Origin: Bartonella tribocorum
GTDB lineage: Bacteria > Pseudomonadota > Alphaproteobacteria > Rhizobiales > Rhizobiaceae
Direction: 5' to 3'
Assembly (NCBI RefSeq): GCF_002778015.1
Contig: NZ_NJPP01000001.1
Coordinates: 124,262-188,261 of the forward strand
Length of the DNA: 64,000 nt
Shown: positions 1,359 to 52,271 of the stretch, one piece after another
How positions within the stretch are numbered: position 1 is the stretch's first letter
How the letters are laid out: every line of letters starts with the position of its first letter
Made by a program: the position numbers and the translations under genes
The notes under the pieces: generated by a model
What the model was told of the DNA's origin: nothing
The model's database searches: none
The model's input: only the letters and a program-made list of their open reading frames with translations

Positions 1359-1362
1359 ATTT

Positions 1363-2682: not shown

Positions 2683-2724
2683 AAATCAGTTGTTTTTAAA
2701 TCTTTGAAAGATATACTTTTAATC

Positions 2725-3723: not shown

Positions 3724-4435
3724 AATAAATTCTCCACCGAGTTGATTATTTGATTTATAATTCATAGCTTGTTGTTCGCTCTTTTAAAATCAGAGTGTTC
3801 AATGGATGAATGCTTTTGCATTTTAAATGCTCCATGCGGTATCATAAAAAATGTTTCATCGTACATTTAGAGTCTTTTGATAAAAATCGTTGAAAACAGA
3901 AAAAGTACCCCTTATAAATTGTCTTCATGCCAGAGCAGATGCAACATTGGAATCTAGAAAAACCGATTCTGGAGTACTTATTCATAAATATAAAGACAAC
4001 AATGTATCGTTTTGCATTACATTATTTTGCTAAAAAGCTTAATAATTGAAATTAAATAAGGTCATAATACCTTTTTAAACAACCCCATAAATGAGTAGAA
4101 TAAGAGTATACTCTTATGATTATCCCGAAAAAAGATCAACATAAAAACTGTGAAGCAATGCATCATGTTTATTATTTAAAAGGTATTCCTCTGGAGATTT
4201 TTAAAAGTTGTAAAACTACGTGAAATGGATAGAATTTTGCTTGTATAATAAGACTTATCATGAGATTTCTTGTTCTATTCGTAATATCATTTCTCAGATC
4301 CATCAATGCGTATTTGTTACACAAGTTTATGCAGATTTTAAACGGGACTTTTCGCACAAAGAAGTCTTCTTCTTGTCTTGCATTTTTTTTTAATTTCTCC
4401 TACCGTCTTGGAAAAAGATTTTAAAGGAATGAAGG
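3724..4435. other. Gene-free region with a decayed repeat
   Basis: No gene supported. The stretch holds one partial copy of the decayed repeat family (about 3885-3975, listed separately). A 61-codon minus-strand frame at 4172-4357 has no coding character or ribosome site. The ahcY promoter must lie toward the right end. I could not recognise a SAH riboswitch in it. Confidence 0.6.
3885..3975 (+). repeat. Decayed repeat family, copy 1 (partial)
   Basis: This stretch matches the 5' part of the repeats at 34725, 34985 and 53165 (the last on the opposite strand). Shared blocks are CCCCTTATAAATTGTCTTC and GCAACATTGGAA. In the best-preserved copy the same position encodes the start of a 75-residue ORF; here the ATG is replaced by ATA, so it is not translated. 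The element is a remnant, judged by eye only. Confidence 0.55.
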
Positions 4436-5833
4436 ATGACAGCTCAAGATTTTGTTGTCAAAGATATTGCACTTGCTGCTTATGGTCGTAAAGAACTTGA
4501 TATTGCTGAAACGGAAATGCCTGGCTTGATGGCTTGTCGCAAGGAGTTTTCCTCCAGTCAACCTTTGCGCGGTGCACGGATTTCTGGCTCGTTGCACATG
4601 ACAATTCAAACAGCTGTTTTAATCGAAACATTAAAAGCAATTGGCGCTGATATACGGTGGAGCTCTAGCAATATTTTTTCCACGCAAGATCATGCAGCAG
4701 CAGCTATTGCCGCAACTGGTATTCCTGTATTCGCCGTTAAGGGTGAAACATTGGAAGAATATTGGACTTATATAGATGCCATTTTTCAATGGCCTGATGG
4801 TAATCCTTCCAACATGATTTTAGATGATGGAGCTGATGCTACAAACTATATTTTAATGGGAAGTCGTGCAGAACAAAATGAAGATATCCTCTCGCATCCC
4901 AAAACAGAAGAAGAAGAATTTTTTTTCAAACAAATCCAAAAGCGTATGGATGCAACACCAGGATTTTTTACAAGACAGCGCGCAACAATTAAAGGTGTAA
5001 GCGAAGAAACCACAACAGGTGTAAACCGTCTTTATCAATTACAAAAAGAAGGGCTTCTGCCTTTTCCTGCTATTAATGTCAATGATAGCGTCACGAAATC
5101 AAAGTTTGATAATAAATACGGATGTAAAGAATCATTGGTCGATGGTATTCGACGTGGAACAGACGTGATGATTGCTGGCAAAACAGCCATTGTCTGTGGT
5201 TATGGTGATGTAGGAAAAGGTTCAGCAGCATCTCTTTCGGGTGCTGGGGCTCGTGTTAAAATAACAGAAATTGATCCCATTTGTGCTCTTCAAGCAGCTA
5301 TGGATGGCTATGAAGTTGTTAATTTAGATGATGCTGCCTCCAGTGCTGATATTATCATCACAACAACAGGCAATAAAGATGTTGTTCGTTTAGATCATAT
5401 GCAACAAGTAAAGGATATGTGTATCCTTGGAAATATTGGTCATTTTGATAACGAAATCCAAGTTGCAGCCCTTAGAAATTTGCCATGGATAAATATTAAG
5501 CCTCAAGTTGATATGATTACCTTTCCCGATGGAAAACGCATTATTTTGCTCTCTGAAGGGCGTTTGTTAAACCTTGGTAATGCAACAGGGCATCCTTCTT
5601 TTGTTATGTCAGCCTCATTTACTAATCAGGTTTTAGCGCAAATTGAACTTTTTACCCGTGCAGAACACTATACCAATGAAGTCACTGTTTTACCTAAACA
5701 CCTTGATGAAAAAGTTGCACATCTCCATCTTGATCGGTTAGGAATAAAACTAACTGTTTTATCAGAAGAACAAGCCGCTTATATTGGTGTTACACCGCAA
5801 GGACCTTATAAACCAAACCATTACCGTTACTAA
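4436..5833 (+). CDS. ahcY: Adenosylhomocysteinase (SAH hydrolase)
   Basis: Cytosolic NAD-dependent enzyme that splits S-adenosylhomocysteine to adenosine and homocysteine, removing the product inhibitor of methyltransferases. The 465-residue protein is full length for the bacterial family. The Rossmann motif [12 protein letters not shown] lies near residues 252-263, the conserved [11 protein letters not shown] segment just before it (about 221-231), and the C-terminal [10 protein letters not shown] tail, which reaches into the neighbouring subunit, is intact. ATG 4436 follows AAAGGA with good spacing. divL begins 36-81 bp downstream, the ahcY-divL-tsaE order seen in other Rhizobiales. Confidence 0.98.
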
Positions 5834-5869
5834 AATGCTTCCTTGGGTTTTAAAAAAGGGAAAGATGTC

Positions 5870-8335
5870 GTGCTCAGCTTTGGTGACCATACCCCCAAAG
5901 AAAAAGTTCAAAAAATGATCCGAATTTATACGTTTATATTTTGCATTTTTTTCTTTTTTTCTCCAACACGAACTGTTGCTCAGTCGTTGGAAGGTTATTT
6001 ACCATTTTCCTTCACTTTGCCAAATGGCCCATGGCTGTTTTTAGCTTTGTGTGGAGGAATTTCTTGTGCTTCATTTCTCACGTGCGTCGTTGTTATTATG
6101 CATGCAAAAAAAACAGCACAGAAGCCTTTGAAGATAATTCAGGCAGACTTTTCTGAAAAACTGAGATACTATGAATGGCTTTTAGAAGAAACTGAGCAAT
6201 TCCTTCTTATTTGGGAAAATCCAACAACCTTACCTCGTGTCGTGGGGACCCTTTCTACATTAAAAAAAATAGGCATTGATCAGCAAAATTTTCAGCACTT
6301 TGAACTTTGGGTTGAAGAAAATTCTCTGCGAGAACTTGATTATGCGTTGACTCAACTACGTTGTAAATGTCACTCCTTTGAACTTTCTATCACCACCACA
6401 AATAATGTGCTGCTACACGTTACAGGGATTATAGCAGGAACAGTCGCCATTGCTCGTTTTCAAGATATCTCAAAACAGCAGAGCGAAAATGCGCGTTTAC
6501 AGAAAGACATTGCCCGTCTTCTTACTGAACTGAGAATGCAGCGTAATCTTCTTGATCTTATTCAAGAACCTGTATGGATAAAAGATTGTGAAGGAAAAGT
6601 TTGTTTTATCAATCGCGCCTTTAGAGAAATGACAGACTTTCGTGAAGACAGTGATGAAGTGGGGGATCTTTTCAATGAAAATACACAACGCAAGACAGAT
6701 GAAGCAGAAACACTTTTTCAAGAACATGTTCACACCGTCATTGATGGAGAACGACGCCGTTTTCATCTCACACGTATTACAACAGCTGAAGGAATGGCAG
6801 CTTTTGCCCGTGATGACAGCGCCTATGAACATCTTGCTCATGAATTAAGACATGTTCTTCAAAGCCATTGTGAAACCCTTGACCAAATCTCAACGGCTGT
6901 AGCTATTTTTGATAAAAACCAAAAACTAAAATTCTGCAATCATGCTTTTAAAATTTTATGGCCGTTAGAGAGCTCCTTTTTAGAAAGCAAACCAAGCCAT
7001 ACATTGTTTCTTGAACGTTTACGTGAAAAAGGGCACATTGCTGAACATCCGGATTGGCGCGCGTGGAAAGAAGAGCTTTTTAAAGCCTATCGGCAAACAG
7101 AATCGAATCAACAAATTTGGAATCTTCCAGATGGGCGTACGGTGCGTGTTGTCTCGAATCCTCATCCACAAGGAGGGGTTACTTGGCTTTACGAAAACCT
7201 TACAGAAAAAATTGATCTTGAACGCCGTTATAATACACTGATTAAAATACAAGGTGAAACACTTGATAAACTTTCCGAAGGCGTGGTCGTTTTTGGTACT
7301 GATGGACGTCTTCGTTTATCGAATCCTGCCTTGTCGAAATTGTGGGAACTTCCTTATAATTTACTGGTAGAAGGGACCCATATTACTCAGTTACAAAGTC
7401 ATTGTTCAACCTTAACTGTGGGACAAGAATGGGATCAGTTTACAAAATTCATTACTGGCTTTGCTGAAAAACGTGAAACATTTTCGGGGCGTATAGATCT
7501 TAAAAATAATATGATTATTGACTATACTCTAGTCCCTCTTCCCGATGGACAGACGATGCTTACTTTTGTGAATGTTACAGACACTGTCCATGTTGCACGT
7601 GCTCTTCAAGAAAGAAATGAAGCCTTAGAAAGTGCTGATCGTTTGCGTAATGAATTTGTCCAACATGTTTCCTATGAATTGCGTACACCTCTCACCAATA
7701 TTATTGGATTTTCTGATATTTTACGCGATCAAATTTTCGGTTCTATCAATGAACGTCAACAAGAATATCTTGGGCATATTCATTCAGAATCAGGAACTCT
7801 TTTAAATATTGTTAATGATATTCTTGATCTTGCCACCCTTGATGCAGGCATTATGGAACTCGATATAAAATCAGTTAACATTGCCGATGCTATGATACAA
7901 GCAATAGCGCGTGTAGAAGATCGCCTTAACGGACGCCATATTACGCTTTTACAACAAATTTCTCCTTCTTTAAATTCTATTTCTGCTGATGAAAAACGTT
8001 TACATCAAATTTTTGTGAATGTTCTAAGTAATGCTATTAACTTTGCAACAGAGGCAAGCACGATTGAATTTTGTGTCGATGAACAAGATGATAACATCGT
8101 CTTTAGCGTTCACAATGAAGGCTCTGACATCCCAAAAGATATCCTTGATCGCATTTTTAAACGTTTTTCTTCCCATTCACACCATGGTGGACGTGCAGGA
8201 GCAGGGCTTGGTCTTTCGCTTGTGAAAAACTTCGTTGAACTACACAGTGGGCATGTTGAAATTCTTACCGGCTCTGGAAAAGGAACAACTGTTAAGTGTT
8301 TTTTTCCCCTCTCCAAAGGAGATAAGATTTTTTAA
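5870..8335 (+). CDS. divL: DivL-type sensor pseudokinase (Tyr in place of His)
   Basis: Membrane-anchored PAS/histidine-kinase-like protein matching DivL, the alphaproteobacterial cell-fate regulator acting upstream of the CckA-CtrA pathway. The N-terminus has a signal-like segment and a second hydrophobic helix; PAS-like regions fill the middle. The dimerisation helix reads HVSYELRTPL, where normal kinases have H-E-L-R-T-P, so the phospho-acceptor is tyrosine (codon 7673-7675), the hallmark of DivL. The ATPase domain has an N box (NVLSNAINFA) and G2 box (GAGLGLSLVKNF), but the G1 D-x-G is replaced by NEG. Start uncertain: GTG 5870 has the best ribosome site (AGGGAAAG), ATG 5915 gives a cleaner signal peptide, and a TTG lies at 5843. 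Confidence 0.88.
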   Translation: MLSFGDHTPKEKVQKMIRIYTFIFCIFFFFSPTRTVAQSLEGYLPFSFTLPNGPWLFLALCGGISCASFLTCVVVIMHAKKTAQKPLKIIQADFSEKLRYYEWLLEETEQFLLIWENPTTLPRVVGTLSTLKKIGIDQQNFQHFELWVEENSLRELDYALTQLRCKCHSFELSITTTNNVLLHVTGIIAGTVAIARFQDISKQQSENARLQKDIARLLTELRMQRNLLDLIQEPVWIKDCEGKVCFINRAFREMTDFREDSDEVGDLFNENTQRKTDEAETLFQEHVHTVIDGERRRFHLTRITTAEGMAAFARDDSAYEHLAHELRHVLQSHCETLDQISTAVAIFDKNQKLKFCNHAFKILWPLESSFLESKPSHTLFLERLREKGHIAEHPDWRAWKEELFKAYRQTESNQQIWNLPDGRTVRVVSNPHPQGGVTWLYENLTEKIDLERRYNTLIKIQGETLDKLSEGVVVFGTDGRLRLSNPALSKLWELPYNLLVEGTHITQLQSHCSTLTVGQEWDQFTKFITGFAEKRETFSGRIDLKNNMIIDYTLVPLPDGQTMLTFVNVTDTVHVARALQERNEALESADRLRNEFVQHVSYELRTPLTNIIGFSDILRDQIFGSINERQQEYLGHIHSESGTLLNIVNDILDLATLDAGIMELDIKSVNIADAMIQAIARVEDRLNGRHITLLQQISPSLNSISADEKRLHQIFVNVLSNAINFATEASTIEFCVDEQDDNIVFSVHNEGSDIPKDILDRIFKRFSSHSHHGGRAGAGLGLSLVKNFVELHSGHVEILTGSGKGTTVKCFFPLSKGDKIF

Positions 8336-8372
8336 CCCTTATTATATTTTCATCCATCTCATGGAAGTCTTA

Positions 8373-8840
8373 ATGAATTTTAGTTTTTTTCTTGAAAATG
8401 AAGAGGCGACAAAGCTTTTTGCAAAAAAATTAGCCCTTTCTTTAAAGCTGGGGGACCTTATAACACTGCAAGGAGATCTTGGAACTGGAAAATCAACCAT
8501 TGCACGTACAATCATCCAAACGCTTGCAAACGATGACACGATGGAGGTTCCAAGCCCTACTTTTACTCTTGTGCAAAGCTATCAACTCCCACAGTTTGAA
8601 ATTATTCATGCTGATCTTTATCGCCTTTCTATGGCAGAAGAAATTGATGAATTAGGGCTTTATGAAGCACGTGAGAAAAACATTTTACTTGTTGAATGGC
8701 CAGAAAGAAGTACAGATCTTTTAGAGATTGCCACTTTTGCACTTACCTTACAATATCAAGCACATGGGCGTCATGTGACACTGAGATCTGCACAACATTC
8801 CATTGAACGTTTGAAACAGTCTTTTACAATTCACGCATAA
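8373..8840 (+). CDS. tsaE: tRNA t6A37 biosynthesis ATPase TsaE
   Basis: P-loop ATPase that supports TsaB/TsaD in making the threonylcarbamoyl-adenosine at position 37 of ANN-decoding tRNAs. The Walker A motif GDLGTGKST is near residues 34-42, followed by the family's SPTFTLVQSY and HADLYRL segments and the late VEWPERS. The ATG at 8373 gives 155 residues, normal for the family; an in-frame ATG at 8361 is an alternative. It follows divL by 37 bp and is probably co-transcribed with it. In many Rhizobiales a sugar kinase and nucleotidyltransferase come next; neither is present here. Confidence 0.93.
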   Translation: MNFSFFLENEEATKLFAKKLALSLKLGDLITLQGDLGTGKSTIARTIIQTLANDDTMEVPSPTFTLVQSYQLPQFEIIHADLYRLSMAEEIDELGLYEAREKNILLVEWPERSTDLLEIATFALTLQYQAHGRHVTLRSAQHSIERLKQSFTIHA

Positions 8841-9564
8841 AAAATATCGACATGGTCATGGACTTCATCATTTTTTAATTTGTGATGCCTCAATACGTAC
8901 TTCTACAATTTGAGATAATGAATAATAATAAAGAAGTCCTGATGATGCACCAACCATGAAGATGAAACAAAACGCAGCCTTTTGCACAACTTGCAAAGAA
9001 CATCCGTTAATTGCTAGGAATTAATTCGTTTTTTTTAGAGAATGTTTTGTTATCTCTCATATTTTTTTGAAGATTAAAATTTTTTTGATTCTGGAGAAAC
9101 ATGTAAGGGAATTTTATATCAGAGTGGTTACCTTTTCAGAAAAGCATTAACTTAACCATAGTGAATTGCTTTCTTCTTTCACCTTAAAAATTGTAAACTT
9201 CAAAAAAGCAATTTGTAAAATTTTTGCTTAAAATCTCCTTCTGTGATTGCTAAGCACTCCAAGCAGAGACCTCTTTATTGCTAAAGTGATATTTGCTTTT
9301 TTGTGTGTTGGAACCCTTATCTCAATAGCTTCATCCAAAAAAAAATATCATTCACTTAAATATTCGTTGGCGCGCATATAAGGAAGGAATAGCCTATCTT
9401 GTTTATACAGAACAACTTTTTAATAAAAAATGATCTCTTGAATCATGCATAACAGTGTGGATTCTTAAAAGTGTTTAAATAAATGCATTTAACTTTTTGA
9501 TTTAATTGAATTGCTATTACAATATATTGCAATATTACAGAAAAGAATATTTTTAAAAAAGTCA
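8841..9564. other. Gene-free region at a likely rearrangement point
   Basis: About 720 bp between the convergent tsaE and trxA without a supportable gene on either strand. Relatives usually carry a phosphotransferase and a nucleotidyltransferase gene between tsaE and addB; I could not recognise a remnant of either. The sequence is AT-rich with short homopolymers and looks like decayed DNA. Confidence 0.55.
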
Positions 9565-9592
9565 AAAGGAGAGACTAAAATTTCTCTCCTTT
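9565..9592 (-). terminator. Intrinsic terminator of addB-addA-trxA
   Basis: A perfect 10-bp stem (9565-9574 AAAGGAGAGA with 9583-9592 TCTCTCCTTT) and 8-nt loop lies 20 bp past the trxA stop. On the minus strand it runs into a T-rich tract (TGACTTTTTT), the classic intrinsic terminator shape. It would end transcripts of the addB-addA-trxA group. Confidence 0.88.
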
Positions 9593-9612
9593 ATCGTGCC
9601 CTATGTATGGCA

Positions 9613-9936
9613 TTAACGAAGCCCATCTTTTATCCACTCAGAAAGACGTCCTTTAGAGGTAGCGCCAACCATATTTGATGAGACATTTCCATTTTTAAAC
9701 ATTAATAATGTAGGGATAGAGCGTACTCCATATTGGGTAGCTAATTCCGGATTTTCGTCAATATTTACTTTGACAATTTTAACTTGGTTTTGCATCTCTG
9801 TTGAAACTTCATCCAAAATTGGCGCTATCATTTTGCAAGGACCACACCATTCTGCCCAAAAATCAACCACAACAGGGGTGGAAGAGGTTAGAACCTCACT
9901 TTCGAAATTGTCCTTATCAACTTTTACACACGTCAT
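9613..9936 (-). CDS. trxA: Thioredoxin 1
   Basis: Small cytoplasmic disulfide reductase, recycled by TrxB and NADPH. The redox motif WCGPCK sits near residues 30-35 after VVDFWAEW, and the cis-proline loop SIPTLLMF follows near 72-79. The chosen ATG at 9936 is preceded by AAGGA and yields 107 residues, the family's usual size; a GTG seven codons upstream (9957) is weaker. trxA lies 176 bp downstream of addA on the same strand and is followed by a strong terminator. Confidence 0.97.
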
Positions 9937-10112
9937 TGATTTATCCTTTATACTCACTTTTTATAGATTGGTATGATAACAATTCATATCAAGTTATTGC
10001 AAAGATAAATTATTAAAGAGTTTTTTTGCATCAAAAATTGTGGCGTGTGTTTATTTGAGCAATTTTAAGAAAATAAAAAAAGCGTAAAGATACTTTGAAG
10101 GGAAGCAATAAC

Positions 10113-13100
10113 TTATAGGGCAATTTCATCAAGAAATGCCTCGAGTTTTTCTGGAGGAAGTTTAAAAATTTTGGCTTCTTTACTGTAGATAAGCAGAGCT
10201 TGGATATCTTTATCAGGATGAATCGCTTGCAACAATTTTCGATAAAGCGCCATTTGCAACCAATGATGAGGAGCAATAGCAGTTTCATTTTCAGGTGGAA
10301 TCCCTGTTTTAAAATCAGCAAAGATAATGCTGTTTTTCGTGATGTAGAGACGGTCAATTTGACCAGAAATTGCTTGTTCTTTTCCACGAATTTTTACAAT
10401 CCCCATTAAGGGAACTTCAGCACGTGACTGCTCAGAGAAAAGGGGTTTGAGGTAAACATGATCTAAAATTTTCCAAACATGGCGAAGAGCACGTTCTCTT
10501 TGGCTTTCATCCCAATGAGAAGCTTTGATATTGAGATAGTTTCGAGCATAATCTTGACGTTTTTGTGGGAGGCAGTCGGGGAGATATTGTAATAATCGGT
10601 GAATGAGGTGACCATATTCAATGAAAAAAGCTCTGTTGGTGTTTATTTCTCCTAAAACAGGTGAGGTGAAAAGTTGTTTTGGGCTTGAAGAAAGTTCTGT
10701 ATCAGCTTCAATGGAAAGGCTCGCAACTGAAGGTTTTAACGGTTTTGGGAGAACTGGTTCTGCTGGTACTTTATGAGAGAAAAAAGCAGGCAAAGCTGGT
10801 AAGGCTTGACTCTCAGCGCAGGGAACTTCTTGGTTTATAGAGGCAGAAGAAGATGTAATGCAATAACGCCAAGCCGCAATATCTTCTGCAGGGCCTTTTA
10901 TAGCAACCGCATGGGGTTCCAGGGCTTTTTTTACCAGTTGTAGCCATGTATGAGAGGGTGTTTTTTTACCTTTATATCCACAAACAAATAAACGATCTTC
11001 AGCGCGTGTCATTCCTACATAAAGAAGGCGCCTATACTCTTCTTCGGCACGCTCTTTTAAATGTGAAATTGCTTGCTTAGAGAGTTTTGTATCAAACTTT
11101 TCATTGGGGCGCCAAATAAAAGCTTGTTGTCCATTCCCTTGTGCATTGTTTAAAGGAACTTTAAGCAAATGAGGTGCATGCTGAGGATGCCAAATCGCAC
11201 TACCAGGATCAACCAAAAACACAATAGCAGCCTCCAGTCCTTTTGCGGCATGAACCGTCATGATGCGAATTTCTTCATTGTTTTGTTCAAATTCACGTTT
11301 AATTTCTGGTTCGCTTGCAGTTAATGTTTCTAAAAAAGCTTGTAATCCTGGTAATCCTGTTTTTTGAATAGCGAGCGTATAATCCATAAAAGCATCGAGT
11401 ACATCATTTGCTTCAGATCCTAAACGAGACAGTATTTTTTGTCTTCCTTTATCATTATTCAGAATATGGCTATAAAATTCGAAAACTGGTATTTTATCCA
11501 CTAACGTGCGATAATGGTTCAGTCTTTCAAAAGCATCTTTAAAAGATATCTGCGATGATGCGTGCGTACATAAGCTTTGCCAAAGAGAGCCGGTTCGGTG
11601 TGCGGAAAGCTGATAGAGTTTCTCTTCACTAAAAGCAAAAAGAGGGCTTTTTAATACGCAAGCAAGAGAAAGATCATCTTGTGGCTGCAAAACAAAACGT
11701 CCAAGCGCCATTAAATCACGGATACTAATATGTTTGGTGAGTTCTAGACGATCAGCTCCTGCTACAGGAATATTAAGGTGTTTAAGAGCATAAGAAAGAG
11801 CTGAAACAAATTTATCCCGTTTACGAACCAAGATCATAATATCACTTGCTCGTATTAAGCGCCCCTTTGCTGGAAGCATTTCACCTTTTTGTAACCAATC
11901 GGCAATCGTTTCAGCAATTTTTTCGGCTAAACGGACTTCAGGTGTATCTAAATGATCAACACTCAAATGCCAATCATGAGGAAATTCGCTTGTTTCTTTG
12001 GAAATGGCATCCCATATAACCACTTCACCTGGACTATGAACACGAATAGCTTCATGCACTGTCTTTGTATTTTCTGCCGAAAGCCCTTTATAGTTTTCTG
12101 GTGTTTCAAAAACATGATCAACGCTTTTAAGAACATCCACTGTAGAACGAAAAGAATAATGCAGTTGTATTTTTTCAAATTGCTGATTTGTTTGCTGCGC
12201 TTTTTTTTGAATGATTCGTCCATTTGCAGCAAAGTTTTCTGGAGCAGCGCCTTGAAAAGAATAAATAGATTGCTTTTCATCTCCAACAGCAAAAAGAGTC
12301 CGTATATTTGTTCGTTGGCTATACCCTGAGAAAAATTCTTGCGCCAACAATTGAATAATTTGCCACTGCTCAGGGTTGGTATCTTGTGCTTCATCAAGGA
12401 GAATATGATCAAGCCCACGATCCAGTTTATAGTGCACCCATTGGCTTGCACCTTTACGCTGTAACAAATGAAGCGTACGCTCAATAAGGTCGTCAAAATC
12501 TAAGAAGCCATTAGCCTTTTTTAGATTCGTATAGATTTTGAGATAAACGGCACAAAGCTGAAAAGCAGCCATATTGAGGGTGGCAATTTTTGCACATTGA
12601 TATTTTTCTAAAAGAATAGAAAGCTTGTTTTGTTTATCTTCAAGCATTTGTTGAATAAAAGGCCAAATTTCATCTGATTTTTTACGAGATAAATTTGAAA
12701 AATTACGCGGCTCACCTTTTGTTTTAAAATAAATATCAGAAATAATATTGAGAATATTTGTCTCATCACACGTCTTTTCTAATTGGGAAAATTTTTCCAC
12801 CATATTCCTAAAGCTTTGGCTTCCATTTATTTCACAATGCTTAAGAGCATAAAGGGGAAGGCGCGCAGTCTGTTGAATTTGTTCCAAAAGACTTTGATTT
12901 GTTTCATCGGGCGCTAAGTTAAAAAGCGCGCGCAATTTTTCTTCTCCATCTTCAGATAAAAGAGAAGACAAAAAATCAGAGAGTTTATGTTGCTTTTCAA
13001 CGGCTTCATAGAGAAGTTGATTAAAAGTATGTTCGCTAACAACTTGAAGTAACTGTTGCAGAGAAGGTTGTATATCACGACGTGCTAAAAGTTGGCGACA

Positions 13101-13586
13101 AGATTCTTGTTGTAATTTTTTGCGACTGACATCATCGGGAAGTTCAAAATGCCCTGCGATATTGGCTTCTAACATAAATTGATGCAAAAGAGATTCACAA
13201 AAAGCATGAATTGTTTGAATTTTCAAGCCACCAGGTGTTTCGAGGGCACGCGCGAAGAGCTGTCGTGCATAAGTTAATTTTTGCGCATTGACGGGTTTAT
13301 TTTCAAACCGTGTTAAGGTTTCTTGCAACTGTGCATCATCGAGTTCATTCCAACTGGAAAGTGTGCGAAAAATTCGTGATTGCATAACAGCAGCAGCAGC
13401 TCTTGTATAAGTAAGGCATAAAATACGTGCTGGAGGCGTACCGTTTAAAAGCAAACGAATAACACGTTCACTTAAAACGTGCGTTTTTCCAGATCCAGCA
13501 TTTGCAGAAACCCACACGTTTTTTTGAGGGTGTGTTGCCGTTGCTTGTGCATCAAGAGCAGCTTTAGGAATAGAAAAAAAAGTCAT
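10113..13586 (-). CDS. addA: Double-strand break repair helicase-nuclease AddA
   Basis: Large subunit of the AddAB helicase-nuclease, the alphaproteobacterial counterpart of RecBCD, which processes broken DNA ends for RecA. The 1157-residue protein starts with the UvrD-type Walker A SANAGSGKTHVLSERV near residues 27-42. It has the Walker B/Q region LLDEAQDTNPEQW, helicase motif VHAAKGLEA, and LLYVGMTRAEDRL. The C-terminal RecB-type nuclease domain shows FADFKTG. Only 2 bp separate it from the addB stop, so the two subunits are made from one transcript. Confidence 0.95.
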   Translation of the reverse strand: MTFFSIPKAALDAQATATHPQKNVWVSANAGSGKTHVLSERVIRLLLNGTPPARILCLTYTRAAAAVMQSRIFRTLSSWNELDDAQLQETLTRFENKPVNAQKLTYARQLFARALETPGGLKIQTIHAFCESLLHQFMLEANIAGHFELPDDVSRKKLQQESCRQLLARRDIQPSLQQLLQVVSEHTFNQLLYEAVEKQHKLSDFLSSLLSEDGEEKLRALFNLAPDETNQSLLEQIQQTARLPLYALKHCEINGSQSFRNMVEKFSQLEKTCDETNILNIISDIYFKTKGEPRNFSNLSRKKSDEIWPFIQQMLEDKQNKLSILLEKYQCAKIATLNMAAFQLCAVYLKIYTNLKKANGFLDFDDLIERTLHLLQRKGASQWVHYKLDRGLDHILLDEAQDTNPEQWQIIQLLAQEFFSGYSQRTNIRTLFAVGDEKQSIYSFQGAAPENFAANGRIIQKKAQQTNQQFEKIQLHYSFRSTVDVLKSVDHVFETPENYKGLSAENTKTVHEAIRVHSPGEVVIWDAISKETSEFPHDWHLSVDHLDTPEVRLAEKIAETIADWLQKGEMLPAKGRLIRASDIMILVRKRDKFVSALSYALKHLNIPVAGADRLELTKHISIRDLMALGRFVLQPQDDLSLACVLKSPLFAFSEEKLYQLSAHRTGSLWQSLCTHASSQISFKDAFERLNHYRTLVDKIPVFEFYSHILNNDKGRQKILSRLGSEANDVLDAFMDYTLAIQKTGLPGLQAFLETLTASEPEIKREFEQNNEEIRIMTVHAAKGLEAAIVFLVDPGSAIWHPQHAPHLLKVPLNNAQGNGQQAFIWRPNEKFDTKLSKQAISHLKERAEEEYRRLLYVGMTRAEDRLFVCGYKGKKTPSHTWLQLVKKALEPHAVAIKGPAEDIAAWRYCITSSSASINQEVPCAESQALPALPAFFSHKVPAEPVLPKPLKPSVASLSIEADTELSSSPKQLFTSPVLGEINTNRAFFIEYGHLIHRLLQYLPDCLPQKRQDYARNYLNIKASHWDESQRERALRHVWKILDHVYLKPLFSEQSRAEVPLMGIVKIRGKEQAISGQIDRLYITKNSIIFADFKTGIPPENETAIAPHHWLQMALYRKLLQAIHPDKDIQALLIYSKEAKIFKLPPEKLEAFLDEIAL

Positions 13587-13588
13587 GA

Positions 13589-16500
13589 TTATTCTTCTTT
13601 ATGAAAACCACTTGACCATTCCCACAACCGTGCCAAATGGTCGTAGTCACCCTCATATCGTTTTTCCATGGGAACAGCATGTGAAAGATAGCCTTGTTGT
13701 GGATTTTGATAATACGTTATAAGTGCAATAAGATTTTTCCATGCAATTTCACCAAGATTAACTGCACTTAAGTGGGTTTCTCCTTCTCCTTTACTTAAAA
13801 GAATTGATTGGGATTTAATTTCACCCTTTCCATTCAGGGGAATGTAAAATAGATTTGAGGGGGTAAGATCTTGAAAATCTGGAAATGCTCCTTCCATAAG
13901 CAAAGTTGTTTCTAAAGCCAATTGTGGAAATAATAATTCACGAACTTGTTTTGATGAAGGAGGTGTCCCGGTTTTAAAATCTAAAATTTCAACCGTTTTA
14001 TCTGGCAAGACATCAAGACGATCAGCACGTCCTGAAAGGGTTACTCCTGTTGTCCCTATAGGGACTTTTTGTGAGACCACTTCAGCATTTCGCTCTCGCG
14101 GACCTAAACTTTGTTCCCACTGAATAAGGTGTGGAGCAAGATTTTCAAAAATGTTCCACCAAATTGCTTCAACGTCGGGTGGAAAATTGAATTTATCAAA
14201 TTCCTTACGCCCAATAGAAAGTAGGACATCTAATGCATTTTTAGCATTTGGATTTTTTATTTGTGTACAAAAAGCTGCAAGAATAGCATGATAAAGTATT
14301 CCCCGTTCAATAGCGCTAGGGTCGTGAATAAGTGCTTTAAGTGGTTTGAGACGTAAGATTTTTTTGGCATAAATAGCATAAGGGTCATACCGCAATGTTT
14401 CTATTTCAGTGACTGAAAAATGACGTGGACGTACATCAAGGGGTGGTGCAGGGCAAGGACGTTCCACATCAGAAATCATGCTGGTATGATCAAGCATTTT
14501 TGTCCAATGGCGTATTATTTCACCTCGTGCACGGATTTGTTTCCAAGCCTGTTTTCCTACAACTGTTTCTATGCGTTGTAACCAACGTGAAGGAATAGAA
14601 GGGGTATGATTAACGCGCAATGCGCGACTCATCACCACTTTATCCATTCCCATAGCCCATTGAAAATCATGCGCGGAAAGACCAATATGCTTCTCTGGTG
14701 GTTCCAGCGTTAACATCATTTTCATCGGTCGCGATAAAAAAGCATCATTTCGAGTTGATATCGGCCATGATCCTTCATTAAGGCCTCCAATAACCACTGT
14801 ATCAACCGTTTGCAAACGTGATTCCAACGTACCCCAGATGAATAAACGCGGATGTCCTCCAGGCGAAGGTGTAACGGAACGCGTTGCGATCAATGCAGAA
14901 AACATAGCGGGCCATTCGCAAAGATAAAATGTTAATCCTGATTGATCACTGACCAATTCCCGTAAAAATTTTGATAGAGTTTGTCCCGCTTCGTGTTGAT
15001 AAAGATGTGCAAGAGAATTATCCTCATTGCGCCCAAAATTTTCAAAAACCTCAACAGTTGCTATCGCAGCTTCATTGATGGTGCATTCTTTCTCTCGTTT
15101 CATGAGAGAGGCTAAAGGTTCAACAGCCTTCTTCAAAAGATGACACAGGAGACGTGCTTCTTCAAATTTTTGCTGATCAAGGGCGTTGATTTCAGTGCGA
15201 TCATGGGAATAGGTTTCAATCCATTTTTCAACAAATTGATCACATTCGCAAAGATTGATGCGCCCCGTGTTCCCTCGAAGAACAAAAAGTTCAAAATTTT
15301 CTGCCATTTCGCGTAAGCGATGACGGTTTTGTCGGAGTGTTGTCAATGGATGTTTAAGAAGAGAAAGAAAAACAATGGGATCATCAGGTTGCAAAACATT
15401 TTCTAAGATTAATCGCAAAAGCGTTACAGGCAATGTTTGTGCAAGTGGTATTCCCCCTGAATCATTTGCCTCAATTCCAAATCGCTGTAATTCCGCAGCA
15501 ACACGGCGTGCTAAATTACGGTCATTGGTAATAAGAGCTGCGGTTTTTTGAGGTTCTTCAATAGCTCTGCGTAAGGCAACAGCAATAGCGAGAGCTTCTT
15601 CACGTTCGTTGATAGCTTCAATAAATGACCAGTCTGCACAAAGAGCCTCATAATCATCACGAACAATTTGTATCCATTTATCTGTCGTAGAAGCTGGTCG
15701 GAGTGCTTCCGATAAAAGAGCCATTCGCCTTTTCTTTGTGCTATTCTGTTGGCCAATTTCGCAAACATGATGACGTTGACACCCCATGAGAGAAAGAAGT
15801 TTTTTTAAATGATATTGAGGATGGCTAAAAATATTTTCTACATGATCAAGAAAATCACAAGCTGTCTTTTCTTTATTGCTTGTGCTGAGCGCATTCCACT
15901 GTTCTTCATCCATATGAAAATCAAGTCCAGGAAGAACAACAGCCCCTTTTGGTAAAGAGGTTATAACCTTTAAAAGATGAGAAACTGCAGGAATAGAACC
16001 GGACACACCAGCCGCAATGATCGGTTTATTAGGTTGTATATGTTGTAAAGTCTCTGCATGCATTATAAGGGCTTGATTGCGCCATTCAGCGGGATTACTC
16101 CGTTGCCTTTCTTTTAAGATTTGTGGCCAATTTTGCGTAACAATAGTCAGGAAATCGAGCGTTATTTGCCACCATTCAGCGACCATATCAGGGGCAATAT
16201 CTTTAAGTTTTGACCAGTCTGCGCCTTCTGTTTCAATTTCATCCATCAAATGTGCTAAATCTTGAGCAAGCCAAATTGCATCGGCAGTATGCGCCGGAAT
16301 AAGAACATTTTCTGTCCCAAACATAGCACGCAAATGCGCAGGCAAACTTTCACGCCATGGACGAATAAGACGCGCTAAAAGCAGTAGACGTTCACTTTCT
16401 CCAATAGGCGGATTAAGAGTGTTGGCATAATTTTCAACAAAAAGGAAACTGTCTTCATCGACATCTCCTAGGGCACGAATGGTTGGCAATAAAGTTGATT

Positions 16501-16708
16501 GTGTATCACTTCTTTCAACAAAGGCTAAACGTAAAGCCCGAGCCGCACGACGTGTTGGAACATAAATAAGGCTATCGGCAAGAACCGTTTGAATATCTCC
16601 ATTGGAAGCAAAATTATCAATAAGGGAACCACAGAGCAGCGCATCAACAAAGTGAGGCAAAAAAGCCGTTCCAGAAGATATAGAAAAAACACGTGGCTTA
16701 TAAGTCAT
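13589..16708 (-). CDS. addB: Double-strand break repair protein AddB
   Basis: Partner subunit of AddAB (1039 residues, usual for the alphaproteobacterial family). The N-terminal helicase-like part is degenerate (VPTRRAARALRLAF near residues 51-64). A central GGLNEGSWP segment and the C-terminal PD-(D/E)XK nuclease motif VEILDFKTGTPP are clear. The gene heads the addB-addA-trxA group and is preceded by a 0.9-kb gap that should contain the promoter. Confidence 0.94.
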   Translation of the reverse strand: MTYKPRVFSISSGTAFLPHFVDALLCGSLIDNFASNGDIQTVLADSLIYVPTRRAARALRLAFVERSDTQSTLLPTIRALGDVDEDSFLFVENYANTLNPPIGESERLLLLARLIRPWRESLPAHLRAMFGTENVLIPAHTADAIWLAQDLAHLMDEIETEGADWSKLKDIAPDMVAEWWQITLDFLTIVTQNWPQILKERQRSNPAEWRNQALIMHAETLQHIQPNKPIIAAGVSGSIPAVSHLLKVITSLPKGAVVLPGLDFHMDEEQWNALSTSNKEKTACDFLDHVENIFSHPQYHLKKLLSLMGCQRHHVCEIGQQNSTKKRRMALLSEALRPASTTDKWIQIVRDDYEALCADWSFIEAINEREEALAIAVALRRAIEEPQKTAALITNDRNLARRVAAELQRFGIEANDSGGIPLAQTLPVTLLRLILENVLQPDDPIVFLSLLKHPLTTLRQNRHRLREMAENFELFVLRGNTGRINLCECDQFVEKWIETYSHDRTEINALDQQKFEEARLLCHLLKKAVEPLASLMKREKECTINEAAIATVEVFENFGRNEDNSLAHLYQHEAGQTLSKFLRELVSDQSGLTFYLCEWPAMFSALIATRSVTPSPGGHPRLFIWGTLESRLQTVDTVVIGGLNEGSWPISTRNDAFLSRPMKMMLTLEPPEKHIGLSAHDFQWAMGMDKVVMSRALRVNHTPSIPSRWLQRIETVVGKQAWKQIRARGEIIRHWTKMLDHTSMISDVERPCPAPPLDVRPRHFSVTEIETLRYDPYAIYAKKILRLKPLKALIHDPSAIERGILYHAILAAFCTQIKNPNAKNALDVLLSIGRKEFDKFNFPPDVEAIWWNIFENLAPHLIQWEQSLGPRERNAEVVSQKVPIGTTGVTLSGRADRLDVLPDKTVEILDFKTGTPPSSKQVRELLFPQLALETTLLMEGAFPDFQDLTPSNLFYIPLNGKGEIKSQSILLSKGEGETHLSAVNLGEIAWKNLIALITYYQNPQQGYLSHAVPMEKRYEGDYDHLARLWEWSSGFHKEE

Positions 16709-17628
16709 ATGATCTCATATTGAGGATAACAAATTCCATTTTATTGATTATTTACATTATTTTGACTGTATACAAATTTTAATACAAGGAAAAACTGAAA
16801 AACTCTATTTATACAGGAGATTTTTAGCTTAGATTCAAAATATTGAAATATATGACCTTGTCTTAAGCCATCGTGAAAAAATATATCAAAATTTTTCTGA
16901 TATTTTTCAACGAAGAATTAGCCATATCTTGTTCTCTAACTCACAGAAGCAATATAAAAAATAAATATTAAAGTTTTAAAAAACATCACAAATACAAATA
17001 TATTATAACTTATTGAATATTATAATAAATTTGCTTCTTTCTTCATATAATGCAATCTGAAAGTGTTCTGTACAGACTTCATCGTTTTCAGAAAAAAATA
17101 TATCATGATATTATAAAATTGAAAAAGTTAGTTTCGTAAATAATATTTTTGCATCCTCATTAAGAGCTTGAAAAAATAACAACACTCTCCCATTTCACCA
17201 TAAAAATAGATTACTTTAATGGAGAGAGTTTTGCAAAAGTGTGTCGTGAAAGCATCTATCTTTATAGAGTTACACGCTTTTTTCAAAAAGATATCTTCTT
17301 ATCACACTTGAGCTTATCCCGTAATAGCACCCTGTAAATAACGCAGAGTGTACTTATATACCGTAAAGTCTTCCATGTATGAGATAAAATTTATTGCACC
17401 CTGTTATTTTTACTTCAAAAAGCTGCAAACCGCTACCATCATTTCTTCTCCTCCCCTAATATTTAAAAAGCTCTTGGCTATGGAGAAGATTTATAAAAGG
17501 CATCTGATTTTTTCCTTAAGTGTTTTTACACACACACCTATTTTTACTTACTCAAGTGCAAAAAATGACTTTAATTCTTTATACTATAAGAAGCTTTGAA
17601 ATGAAAAAACTTACAATATTCAGATTCC
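16709..17628. other. Gene-free region between addB and prfC
   Basis: About 920 bp with no supportable gene. An 83-codon plus-strand frame at 17348-17599 has no ribosome site and low-complexity composition. An imperfect inverted repeat lies at 17181-17232, with arms around ACTCTCCCATT and AATGGAGAGAGT, one bulge and a loop of about 22 nt. It may be a folded remnant or regulatory element; I cannot assign it. Confidence 0.5.
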
Positions 17629-43976: not shown

Positions 43977-44801
43977 TCATTTTCCTTCACGAAATCGTGA
44001 TAAAAGTTCAAATATTGCAGCAGCAGTTTCTTCAATAGAGCGCCTTGTAACATCAATAATAGGCCAACCAAAACGTTCACAAATGCGTTTTGCATAAATT
44101 AATTCTTCAGCTATGTTGATACAATTCGTATAATTGTCAAAAGCAAAACCTTCTCCCAAATCGCGATTTTGGCGAATATGTGAGATTCTTTCAGCTGAAG
44201 CAATTAAACCAATAATCAAAGAATTTTTTGCCTCTAAAAGGGATTCTGGCAAATCAATATTAGGAATAAGGGGGACATTGGCTGTTTTGATTCCGCGATT
44301 TGCTAAATAGATACTTGTTGGTGTTTTGGATGTCCTTGAAATTCCTACAAGAATTACATCCGCTTCAGATAAGCTATTGTAAGACTGTCCGTCGTCATGC
44401 TCTATTGTAAAATCCAATGCCTCAATACGACGAAAATAATCTGCATTAAGATCATGTTGTGCGCTCGCACGTAAATGGGTTGGTATTCCAAGGTAAGATT
44501 GAAAAGTATTTAAAACAGGTTGTAATATATCAATACAAGAAACTTTTATTTTTTCGCATCTTTTTTGAAGAAAAAGTTTAAGTTCTTCATCAATCATTGT
44601 GTAAAGAACAATACCTGGCTCTTGTTGTATCTCATCAAAAGCTTTTTGTAACTGTATTTCATTACGAATCATCGGATAGATATGTTCTGTTGCCTGATAC
44701 ATTGTATACTGTGATGCTACAGCTCTTCCAACAGAAATTAACGTTTCCCCCGTTGCATCAGAAAGCATGTGTAAATGAAAGGATTTTTTTTCTTTTGTCA
44801 C
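43977..44801 (-). CDS. ppsR: Pyruvate,phosphate dikinase / PEP synthase regulatory protein (DUF299)
   Basis: Bifunctional ADP-dependent kinase and phosphorylase that turns PpdK or PpsA off and on. The 274-residue protein has HMLSDATGETL near residues 11-21 and the P-loop-like GISRTSKTPTSIYLANRG near 153-170. The GTG at 44801 is preceded by AAGGAG at 11-nt spacing. In Caulobacter the corresponding DUF299 gene lies immediately beside the replication origin, with maf-aroE-coaE-dnaQ following in the same order. Confidence 0.92.
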   Translation of the reverse strand: MTKEKKSFHLHMLSDATGETLISVGRAVASQYTMYQATEHIYPMIRNEIQLQKAFDEIQQEPGIVLYTMIDEELKLFLQKRCEKIKVSCIDILQPVLNTFQSYLGIPTHLRASAQHDLNADYFRRIEALDFTIEHDDGQSYNSLSEADVILVGISRTSKTPTSIYLANRGIKTANVPLIPNIDLPESLLEAKNSLIIGLIASAERISHIRQNRDLGEGFAFDNYTNCINIAEELIYAKRICERFGWPIIDVTRRSIEETAAAIFELLSRFREGK

Positions 44802-45303
44802 AAAAATTTTAACTCCTTGTTAAGATATGTGTATATATCTTTAACATTTTTTATGAAACTAAAATTTAGGAAAATTTTTTCATTATTATGCACAAATCAA
44901 TTCCTTGTGATAACGTAAGGCATTTTATAAAAAGAAAGAGAGGATAATGCCTCTAAGATGGTGTTATTTTTATTCTTTTTATCCCATCTTTTGTGGATAA
45001 AATTGAGGATAAATGAAGGATAAAAAATAATTCACACTAAACACAGTTAAAAATAAAAAGAATTCCTTCTTTAAATATAAATTTATTAATAAAAAGTTTT
45101 GGAAAAAATAATTTTTAATACTATTTAAATTTTATATTATTTACATAATTACTTAATATTATATGAATAAATTTCATATAATTCGTACTTGCAGATTGAA
45201 AAAATTGAGTGTAGAGTATTATTTTTTCTAAGAATATTTCATTCCATCAAACCTCCATGAATTGTTTAGAGTAATTCTCTCCTTAATTAGAAGAGCGTAT
45301 TTC
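44802..45303. other. Candidate chromosomal replication origin (oriC)
   Basis: Very AT-rich 500-bp gap between the divergent ppsR and rho. DnaA-box-like sequences: TTATGCACA (44886-44894) and TGTGGATAA (44992-45000) both fit TTATNCACA on one or the other strand. TGAGGATAA (45004-45012) and TGTGTATAT (44828-44836) each have one mismatch. A run from 45031 to 45240 is nearly pure A/T and could unwind. It contains a perfect 10-bp hairpin at 45158-45182. Gene order on both sides matches the Caulobacter origin neighbourhood. The hemE gene expected beside it is missing. Function is inferred. Confidence 0.6.
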
Positions 45304-46569
45304 ATGCAAAAAATGAAACTACAAGAACTTAAAAGCAAAAATCCTGTTGAACTTGTTTCTTTTGCTGAAACATTAGAAGTTGAAAATGCCTCCCTTATGC
45401 GCAAACAAGAATTAATGTTTGCAATTTTGAAAAAACTTGCTCTACAAGATGTAGAAATTATAGGAGAAGGCGTTGTTGAAGTTTTACAAGATGGGTTTGG
45501 ATTTTTGCGATCTGCTGATGCTAACTATCTTCCTGGACCTGATGATATCTATCTTTCACCTTCACAAATTCAATCTTTTTCTTTAAAAACAGGTGATACT
45601 ATTGAAGGTCCTATACGGAGTCCAAAAGATGGAGAGCGTTATTTTGCTCTTCTTAAAATTAATACGATTAATTTTGAAAAACCTGAAAAGATTCGCTACA
45701 AAATTCACTTTGATAATCTTACACCTCTTTATTCAAATGAACGTTTTCAGATGGAAATACAAGATCCTACAGAAAAGGATATGTCGTCGCGTGTGATTGA
45801 TTTAATATCTCCATTGGGAAAAGGACAAAGAGGGTTAATTGTTGCACCACCTCGGACAGGAAAAACAGTTTTACTTCAAAATATTGCTCATTCTATTACC
45901 ACTAACCATCCTGAATGTTATCTTATCGTTCTTTTGATTGATGAACGACCAGAAGAAGTTACTGATATGCAGCGTTCAGTAAAAGGAGAAGTCGTTTCTT
46001 CTACTTTCGATGAACCAGCAATACGTCACGTACAAGTGGCAGAAATGGTTATTGAAAAAGCCAAACGTCTCGTTGAATATGGACGCGATGTTGTTATTCT
46101 TCTCGATTCTATTACACGTCTTGGGCGTGCATATAATACCGTTGTTCCTTCTTCAGGGAAAGTTTTGACAGGGGGGGTTGATGCAAATGCTTTGCAGCGT
46201 CCAAAGCGTTTTTTTGGGGCTGCACGTAATATTGAGGAAGGTGGCTCTTTAACTATTATTGCAACGGCTTTGATTGATACAGGTAGCCGTATGGATGAGG
46301 TTATTTTTGAAGAATTTAAAGGAACAGGTAATTCTGAAATTGTTCTTGACCGAAAAGTTGCTGATAAGCGTATCTTTCCTGCTATGGATATTTTAAAGTC
46401 AGGAACGCGTAAGGAAGAGCTTTTGGTTGCACGACAAGACTTACATAAAATTTTTGTTCTTCGTCGTATTTTAGCACCTATGAATGTAACAGATGCAATT
46501 GAGTTTTTGATTGATAAATTAAAGCAAACAAAAAACAATAGTGAATTTTTTGATTCAATGAATACGTAG
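45304..46569 (+). CDS. rho: Transcription termination factor Rho
   Basis: Hexameric RNA helicase that ends transcription of untranslated RNA. The 421-residue protein from ATG 45304 starts [14 protein letters not shown] and matches the usual alphaproteobacterial length; a TTG at 45262 would add an unlikely extension. The RNA-binding domain has GFGFLRS, the P-loop is [12 protein letters not shown] near residues 182-193, and Walker [17 protein letters not shown] and the [11 protein letters not shown]-loop follow. It leads the rho-mnmE-mnmG-rsmG-parA-parB run. Confidence 0.97.
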
Positions 46570-47908: not shown

Positions 47909-47924
47909 TGATTCACGTGAAACA
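47909..47924. promoter_or_regulatory. parS-like ParB site 1
   Basis: TGATTCACGTGAAACA: one mismatch (position 3) to the parS consensus TGTTTCACGTGAAACA. It lies directly after the mnmE stop. Confidence 0.65.
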
Positions 47925-50536: not shown

Positions 50537-51334
50537 ATGAGCGAAACACGAATTATCGCTATTGCAAACCAAAAGGGTGGAGTCGGAAAAACAACCACAG
50601 CAATTAATCTTGCAACAGCTTTAGCAGCCATTGGTGAGAATGTCCTTATTATGGATGTTGATCCACAAGGTAATGCAAGTACAGGCTTGGGAATTGATCG
50701 TAATAGTCGTCCTTTGTCGTCTTATGATGTTCTGGTTTCAGGCATTTCAATTACACAAGCGGCTTTAAAAACAGCAGTACCCAATCTTCATATCGTTCCT
50801 TCTACACTCGATCTTTTAGGTGTGGAAATGGAAATTTCTTCATCAAAAGATCGTATACAACGTTTACGTAAAGCTCTCTATGATGATCCGGAAATGGAAA
50901 AAAAATTCAATTATATTTTAATTGATTGTCCACCATCACTTAATCTTCTTACACTTAATGCTATGGGGGCTGCAGATTCTGTTTTGGTGCCTATGCAATG
51001 TGAATTTTTAGCACTTGAAGGTTTAAGCCAATTGCTTGAAACAGTAAAACAAGTGCGCTCTGTTCTTAATCCAACTTTAGAAATTCAAGGTATTGTTCTA
51101 ACAATGTATGATGGACGGAATAATCTTTCAAATCAAGTTGTTGAAGATGTACGCTCTTTTATGGGAGATAAAGTGTATCGTACTGTTATTCCACGAAATG
51201 TAAGAGTATCAGAAGCACCCTCTTTTGGTAAACCTGTATTGCTTTATGATCTCAAATGTGCTGGAAGCCAAGCTTATTTGCGTCTAGCATCAGAAGTGAT
51301 TCAACGTGAAAAACAAGCACGCGCTGCTGCTTAG
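50537..51334 (+). CDS. parA: Chromosome partitioning ATPase ParA
   Basis: Walker-type ATPase that moves ParB-parS complexes to segregate the new origin. The deviant Walker A KGGVGKTTTAINLA is near residues 13-26 with both lysines, switch I VDPQGNASTGLG near 42-53, and Walker B-like YILIDCPPSLNLLT near 132-145. At 265 residues it is a chromosomal (type Ib-like, no N-terminal HTH) ParA. parB follows after 40 bp. Confidence 0.96.
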   Translation: MSETRIIAIANQKGGVGKTTTAINLATALAAIGENVLIMDVDPQGNASTGLGIDRNSRPLSSYDVLVSGISITQAALKTAVPNLHIVPSTLDLLGVEMEISSSKDRIQRLRKALYDDPEMEKKFNYILIDCPPSLNLLTLNAMGAADSVLVPMQCEFLALEGLSQLLETVKQVRSVLNPTLEIQGIVLTMYDGRNNLSNQVVEDVRSFMGDKVYRTVIPRNVRVSEAPSFGKPVLLYDLKCAGSQAYLRLASEVIQREKQARAAA

Positions 51335-51374: not shown

Positions 51375-52271
51375 ATGAATGATGATCTCTCAAAAAAAAG
51401 ACTAGGACGTGGATTAGCAGCATTAATTGGAGATATCAATTTAAACAACAATATTGCACGTTCATCAAGCTTTGATAAATTAAATGAATCCGGTAACATT
51501 TCTGAACGTTTCGTATCCATTGAAGCTATTTCATGTAATCCTCACAATCCGCGGCGTCATTTTACTGAAACAGAGCTTGATAATTTGGCACAATCAATTC
51601 GTCAGCATGGTGTGGTTCAACCGGTTATTGTAAGGCCTTTAAGAGATCATCCTCATCGGTTTGAATTGATTGCGGGTGAACGGCGTTGGCGTGCAGCACA
51701 ACGTGCAAATTTAAATCAATTACCCGTTATTATTCGTGATGTGGACGATAAAACCGCTTTGGAATTGGCTATTATTGAAAATATTCAGCGGGCTGATCTT
51801 AATCCTATCGAAGAAGCAAAAGGATATGAGATGCTCTTGAATGAACATGATTATACACAAGTGGATTTAGCACAAGTTATTGGAAAAAGTCGTAGTCATG
51901 TTGCAAATACGCTTCGTTTATTAAAACTTCCAGAAAAAGTACAACAATTTTTAACGGATGGACAACTTTCGGCAGGTCATGCACGGTGTCTTATAACTGT
52001 TGATAATCCACAAGATTTAGCTGAAAAAATTATCCGTGAAGGACTTTCTGTTCGTCAAACAGAAATACTTGCATATGAACAGGCAAATCCTAAAACTAAA
52101 AAACGTACGACTATGAAGAAAGATGCAGAAACAAAATCTTTAGAAAAATTACTTGCAGATGTGATCGGGATGAAAGTCATTATTCGTCATGGTAAAAAAG
52201 GTGGAGATTTAAAAATACGCTATTCTTCATTAGAACAATTAGATGAAATTTGCCGGCGTTTACAAAGTTAA
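51375..52271 (+). CDS. parB: Chromosome partitioning CTPase ParB
   Basis: Centromere-binding clamp that loads at parS and spreads. The N-terminal KKRLGRGLAALIGD (residues 6-19) is the ParA-stimulating peptide. The CTP-binding region contains NPRRHF, and GERRWRAAQRA near 99-109. The helix-turn-helix TQVDLAQVIGKSRSHVANTLRLL is near 157-179, and the C-terminal dimerisation domain ends LDEICRRLQS. Four parS-like sites in the window are its likely targets. Confidence 0.96.
   Translation: MNDDLSKKRLGRGLAALIGDINLNNNIARSSSFDKLNESGNISERFVSIEAISCNPHNPRRHFTETELDNLAQSIRQHGVVQPVIVRPLRDHPHRFELIAGERRWRAAQRANLNQLPVIIRDVDDKTALELAIIENIQRADLNPIEEAKGYEMLLNEHDYTQVDLAQVIGKSRSHVANTLRLLKLPEKVQQFLTDGQLSAGHARCLITVDNPQDLAEKIIREGLSVRQTEILAYEQANPKTKKRTTMKKDAETKSLEKLLADVIGMKVIIRHGKKGGDLKIRYSSLEQLDEICRRLQS

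Follow-up and report, generated by a model that had tools for sequence, protein, structure and literature searches.

The stretch of DNA analysed here (the window) comprises 64,000 nucleotides of Bartonella tribocorum (G000:C1:124262-188261), lying on a 264-kb contig, C1, of a 2.09-Mb genome in 99 contigs. In a three-gene tree of 29 taxa, this genome was placed beside Bartonella elizabethae and Bartonella sp. B1099, and the ppsR protein of the window showed 94% identity to those of B. elizabethae and B. grahamii. The 502-bp gap between ppsR and rho had been proposed, in a reading of the letters without database searches (hereafter the sequence-only reading), to be the chromosomal origin of replication, oriC, or what remains of it. 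The divergent arrangement of the two genes was confirmed, with ppsR on the minus and rho on the plus strand, and maf, aroE, coaE and dnaQ, which that reading named beside the origin of Caulobacter and relatives, lie on one side of the gap. This flank also holds polA, and the other contains trmE, gidA, gidB, parA and parB; the parAB genes, said to lie close by, are real. With respect to the Caulobacter-type arrangement, the COG1806 (DUF299) neighbour is present, as recognised by PF03618, but the other neighbour is rho and not hemE. The features of the region are collected in Table 1.

Table 1 Features in and around the ppsR-rho gap, in coordinates of the window.
Feature	Position	Strand	Evidence or remark
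ppsR (DUF299/COG1806, Kinase-PPPase)	43977..44801	-	PF03618, E 1.6e-89; NF003742 above cut-off
ppsR-rho divergent gap, candidate oriC region	44802..45303		78.5% A+T; densest DnaA-box cluster on the analysed part of contig C1
Conserved origin core	44802..45045		244 bp here
CtrA-type site TTAA-N7-TTAA, TTAACTCCTTGTTAA	44809..44823		exact in 31/32 gaps; N7 overlaps the ppsR Shine-Dalgarno sequence; predicted site
Degenerate partner resembling a DnaA box (outgroups: TGTTGATA type)	44818..44826	-	lines up by eye with CTGTTGAT/CTGTGG blocks in the B. apis lineage and in loci of other Rhizobiaceae
DnaA box, one mismatch, ATATACACA	44828..44836	-	at most one mismatch in 31/32 gaps
DnaA box, exact, TTATGCACA	44886..44894	+	exact in 31/32 gaps
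GGATAA block (TTATCC, half box)	44940..44947	-	GGATAA at 44942 retained in 32/32 gaps
DnaA box, exact, TTATCCACA	44992..45000	-	exact in 24/32 gaps; at most one mismatch in 30/32
DnaA box-like, one mismatch, TTATCCTCA	45004..45012	-	box scan of the gap
DnaA box-like, one mismatch, TAATTCACA	45028..45036	+	at most one mismatch in 27/32 gaps
Right-hand boundary block, TAAACACA	45036..45045		AAACACA in 32/32 gaps; aligned to the block nearest hemE in the B. apis lineage
AT-rich spacer	45046..45187		89.4% A+T here; sits where relatives carry hemE-hemJ
Probable rho promoter, TTGCAG-17-TAGAGT	45189..45217	+	by eye, not in the promoter-scan list
rho	45304..46569	+	Rho_RNA_bind and Rho_N
parS-like site, one mismatch	47911..47922		motif search
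parS-like site, TTTCACGTGAAA	47973..47984		motif search
parS-like site, TTTCACGTGAAA	49938..49949		motif search
parA	50537..51334	+	AAA_31, E 1.5e-59
parB	51375..52271	+	ParB_N and ParB_C; TIGR00180
parS-like site, TTTCACGTGAAA	58391..58402		motif search

Both exact DnaA boxes named in the sequence-only reading (TTATGCACA and TTATCCACA) were found where it had placed them. One-mismatch boxes were also present as it had claimed, but they numbered five (44828, 45004, 45028, 45137 and 45162) and not two. Exact TTATNCACA sites occurred eight times in the 64-kb window against 3.7 expected, a count reached by 6 of 100 shuffles, so lone boxes mean little and it is the cluster that counts; genome-wide, there were 127 exact boxes compared with 89 matches to the reversed pattern. 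Within the gap, the two exact boxes were equalled by 2 of 500 Markov-type shuffles, whereas none of the 500 reached the observed seven boxes with at most one mismatch (mean 0.83). When exact boxes were scored as 3 and one-mismatch boxes as 1, the gap ranked first among 2529 segments of 500 bp on the analysed part of contig C1. The extreme AT-richness ascribed to the gap was equally borne out: it contains the 120 bp with the highest A+T content in the window (90.8%) and also the 60 bp of lowest stability, which begin at 45104. The long A/T-only run was present as well (26 nt, 45070-45095, the longest of the window), but its place is an unconserved spacer beyond the core. Judged from the letters alone, the gap combines two features of a DnaA-dependent bacterial oriC, namely a box cluster beyond chance and a thermodynamically weak AT-rich stretch beside the boxes. 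Structured RNA in the gap was rejected, since no Rfam family matched 44500-45600 at E values up to 1.

The gap was aligned with those of 31 of the 35 loci L032-L066, which are taken here to be mammal-infecting Bartonella, giving 32 Bartonella gaps in all. The four loci left out were L041 and L058, where the contig ends and rho is missing, L047, where the rho match is incomplete, and L060, where the region is duplicated. In all 32 gaps the length from ppsR to the AAACACA block was nearly constant (228-244 bp), and this segment constitutes the conserved core. Homologues of its two end blocks were recognised in loci of other Rhizobiaceae and of the B. apis lineage (L067-L070, L072, L086 and L088, five of them uncultured MAGs), the latter presumably bee-gut bacteria, and also in a genome lacking ppsR, G167. 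Among the 494 9-mers of the gap, TTATGCACA at 44886, with its middle base left free, ranked first for retention; the remaining boxes ranked 5, 10 and 19. In the excluded locus of Bartonella melophagi K-2C (L060:8741-10519), 890 bp comprising the origin and 170-odd initial codons of ppsR are repeated perfectly in tandem; this duplication gives two sets of exact boxes and is either real or a draft-assembly artefact.

The spacer that follows the core measured 129-316 bp across the aligned gaps, with 80-89% A+T. Its mean identity to the window was 0.66 (45064-45182) compared with 0.77 for 44802-45063, and on this ground its A/T runs were rejected as a conserved origin element. The spacer may still be the melting site, because the stability of the window is lowest there, and 45046-45187 is thus a possible candidate for the unwinding region in spite of its unconserved sequence. 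Near the rho end, CTTGCR was found in all 32 gaps and TTGCAG in 27 of them; the promoter scan was uninformative here, with seven other promoter-like sites against 5.1 expected. This conserved rho promoter-like element, together with the ppsR ribosome-binding site inside the gap, would suit a different explanation, in which the gap is merely a long divergent promoter region of ppsR and rho, the boxes and the AT-richness are incidental, and the true origin lies a few kilobases off. However, the best-retained 9-mer is a DnaA box and not a promoter element, and there is no better box cluster on the analysed part of contig C1 to take the place of the one in the gap.

The place of the gap on the chromosome was examined by GC skew. 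The sequence-only reading had named a whole-chromosome skew minimum at about 45 kb as one check on its proposal, and the cumulative G-C minimum of contig C1, computed over all but ~6 kb of the contig, fell at 44162 of the window, 640 bp from the gap. The curve is nearly flat between 44.2 and 46 kb and places the turn to ~1.5 kb only, a resolution that leaves the promoter explanation some room. Since the division of the genome into 99 contigs precludes a full curve, relatives were sampled along near-complete contigs. Genome G143, a single contig of 2,186,791 bp whose ppsR (94% identical) lies at 391,579, showed ten negative and ten positive 20-kb stretches, each set forming one arc, and the sign changed between 350 and 440 kb. 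For B. koehlerae (G102) the change came at 282-349 kb, ppsR being at ~313 kb, and the four 5-kb bins around ppsR gave skews of -0.072, -0.157, +0.115 and +0.125; the skew of both relatives thus turns at ppsR. B. apihabitans followed the same trend with more noise, 2 of 20 stretches being off. Near-zero or positive skew was seen within the otherwise negative arm at positions 1-17000 of the window and at G000:C1:40001-50000, a pattern that recent insertions or inversions might produce.

The opposite pole of the chromosome was located through dif, whose sequence has been published for B. quintana (PMC2731167). A search with 25 of the 28 B. quintana bases, allowing up to three mismatches, returned one match in each of four genomes. 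The dif site of G143 (1,469,396) lies 0.493 of the circle from ppsR, and the separation was 0.477 in G102 and ~0.48 in G170, for which the genome size was rounded; in the window genome, dif is located on another contig, C20. The dnaA gene lies 161 kb from the gap on contig C1, and an origin at dnaA was rejected, as dnaA in G143 sits inside the positive arm where there is no skew turn. In 6 of the 14 single-contig genomes of the genus, ppsR lies no more than 414 bases from base 1, which suggests that depositors already number from here.

The four parS-like sites of the window are situated 2.6-13 kb from the gap, a number that none of 100 shuffles reached. Among the matches listed, five of the six exact parS-like sites of B. 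koehlerae lie within 59 kb of ppsR, and the three of Bartonella sp. B1099 lie within 14 kb; the five of B. apihabitans, also among the matches listed, are scattered over ~290 kb. Over the whole genome of the window, sites with at most one mismatch numbered 18, barely above the 15 of the reversed-pattern control.

The core also contains a site of the form TTAA-N7-TTAA, taken here as the CtrA motif, which the sequence-only reading had missed. In 31 of the 32 gaps the two TTAA halves were retained seven bases apart, with N7 in four forms, and CtrA is encoded in the window genome (NF045991, 414 bits against a cut-off of 350). Against a CtrA site, the motif shows no excess over chance, occurring four times in the window against 7.9 expected, and at this position the outgroups have the DnaA-box-like TGTTGATA or TGTGG instead. 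As the site overlaps the ppsR ribosome-binding site, its conservation alone is ambiguous, and its meaning in the putative origin is uncertain. An exact CtrA-type site is found at the hemE end of the core in all six B. apis-lineage loci with hemE and also in G167. A single exact match to the motif taken here for IHF lies at 44895; it is kept in only 2 of 32 gaps and is thus not conserved. GANTC (CcrM) sites numbered zero in 44802-45303, and at least one was present in 18 of the 32 aligned gaps. In the alignment, the B. apis-lineage and Pseudochrobactrum loci were seen by eye to carry several GANTC sites where the core faces hemE.

The gene order in other Rhizobiaceae and in the B. apis lineage is ppsR, origin, hemE (PF01208), a UPF0093 gene (PF03653) taken here to be hemJ, and rho. 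Each of the two intervening genes was found in 44 of the 45 other loci (L067-L111), the exception, L072, starting at ppsR, and in none of the 35 loci L032-L066, of which L041 and L058 end before that side. The URO-D (hemE) family was detected in 14 of 71 genomes of the genus and not found in the window genome or 56 others, which fits the statement that bartonellae are auxotrophic for heme (PMC3365110). In the 29-taxon tree the mammal-infecting clade received a support of 1.0 on its stem, and the distribution of the genes is consistent with a single loss of hemE-hemJ on this stem, through which rho would have come to adjoin the origin. The sequence-only reading had overlooked this loss. Remnants of hemE or hemJ searched for in the gaps yielded nothing convincing, the one match covering 14 residues (E 0.44), so descent of the spacer from that DNA would be argued from position only. 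A rewiring of the origin by the loss is a tentative idea with rather low odds: the CtrA-type site would have disappeared from the hemE end, where the B. apis lineage and G167 retain it, and another would have appeared at the ppsR end over the ppsR ribosome-binding site, perhaps coupling cell-cycle control of initiation to ppsR expression.

The reverse loss was encountered in G167, the one genome among the 71 of the genus without a ppsR match, in which hemE, hemJ and rho are kept. Its hemE-maf gap of ~1.05 kb (L219:9480-10534) holds six exact DnaA boxes and both end blocks of the core; a ppsR remnant was searched for in this gap and none was convincing (best E 0.011 over 72 residues). G167 joined the mammal-infecting clade with a weak support of 0.586 in the 29-taxon tree. 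To judge by these alignments, the core outlasts the loss of either neighbour, hemE-hemJ in one clade and ppsR in G167, and this is the best sequence argument for an origin over a ppsR/rho promoter region. Where ppsR is missing and hemE, not rho, is the neighbour, a promoter shared by ppsR and rho would not be expected to leave a core with six exact boxes, and the promoter explanation is accordingly considered very improbable.

Several other loci depart from the usual arrangement. In G149 (L220), hemE-hemJ stands beside ppsR, with hemE and rho each matching in two pieces (pseudogenes or sequencing errors), and in G166, hemE-hemJ-rho stands beside an incomplete ppsR. Of 101 family genomes searched, 23 gave no ppsR match; loss of the DUF299 neighbour of the origin may have happened more than once in the family, or ppsR may have diverged or been missed by the search. 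A record titled Bacillus subtilis SK6B4 (L074, JAHREI010000001.1) carries a hemE with 98% identity to the one in a Pseudochrobactrum locus; its gene order matches too, and the record is probably mislabelled or contaminated.

The Caulobacter crescentus origin, Cori, was identified experimentally between hemE and COG1806 (PMC1914354), and the synteny with it that the sequence-only reading had invoked for the DUF299 gene holds. Like Cori as described in that source, the Bartonella gap adjoins COG1806, is AT-rich, and contains DnaA boxes and a putative CtrA-type site; unlike Cori, it has rho in place of the missing hemE, one exact CtrA-type site instead of five, and no conserved IHF site (PMC1914354). 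The B. apis-lineage and other Rhizobiaceae loci (L067-L111) resemble the gap in that the core could be aligned at its two end blocks in the eight loci compared, and the order of ppsR, maf, rho, trmE and gidA is shared as far as each locus extends. These loci differ in keeping hemE, and the six B. apis-lineage loci with hemE have their exact CtrA-type site at the hemE end, not at the ppsR end. Loss of one of the two classical neighbours is shared with the hemE/COG1253 origins of Wolbachia, Ehrlichia and Anaplasma; there, according to the same source, rearrangement displaced COG1806 and hemE was kept, the reverse of the situation in this Bartonella (PMC1914354). Within the genus, an Ori-Finder oriC has been reported at the skew switch of B. 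quintana (PMC11091102). For an ant-associated relative, one report describes an origin placed by skew close to gidAB-parAB and to parS palindromes, in which no DnaA boxes were found (PMC5156944). Among the matches listed from the open literature there was no published anatomy of a Bartonella origin, which is weak evidence of absence, nor did the loss of hemE-hemJ beside the origin, the core boundaries or the case of G167 appear in print there. The origin is therefore known in kind and is better described here.

Bartonella has a second place of replication start, the phage-derived run-off replication (ROR) origin, marked by a peak of read depth (PMC2697382, PMC3610622, PMC6899734). It is located beside phage helicase and exonuclease genes and amplifies a few hundred kilobases (PMC3610622, PMC2697382). 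Such genes were absent among the 12 proteins scanned at 38-52 kb of the window, all of which were housekeeping or partition proteins. The sequence-only reading would have taken a read-depth peak elsewhere as refutation; given the ROR peak, one is to be expected in Bartonella and would not by itself count against an origin in the gap. That the gap is a relic, initiation having moved, for instance to dnaA or to this phage-derived origin (PMC2697382, PMC3610622), is the least probable explanation of all, because the skew still turns at the gap in its own contig and in two relatives, dif lies antipodal to it, the boxes are conserved across 32 gaps, and dnaA in G143 lies within a skew arm of a single sign.

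Taken together, the skew minimum, the antipodal dif of relatives, the parS-like cluster, the conserved box core and the synteny with Caulobacter support the proposal that 44802-45303 is an origin, and on this sequence evidence it is almost certainly the functional chromosomal oriC of this Bartonella. The alternative wording of the sequence-only reading, that the gap might be what remains of an origin, found no support; the origin looks intact and bears no sign of a relic. By the established biology of bacterial origins, DnaA would bind the exact and weaker boxes (44828-45036) and melt AT-rich DNA in or beside this array, for which 45046-45187 is the best candidate; the replisome would then load and two forks would depart. 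As in Caulobacter, CtrA would hold initiation back by binding at 44809-44823, and ParB at the parS-like sites 2.6-13 kb off would move the newly made origins apart. The spacer and the neighbourhood of rho would be the outcome of the hemE-hemJ deletion on the mammal-infecting stem.

The analysis narrows the origin of this Bartonella genome to a predicted core of 244 bp, a clean target for footprinting, and tells the normal origin apart from the run-off origin that the genus derives from a phage. Neighbouring genes were lost twice independently, which shows that the core, and not its neighbours, is what has been kept.
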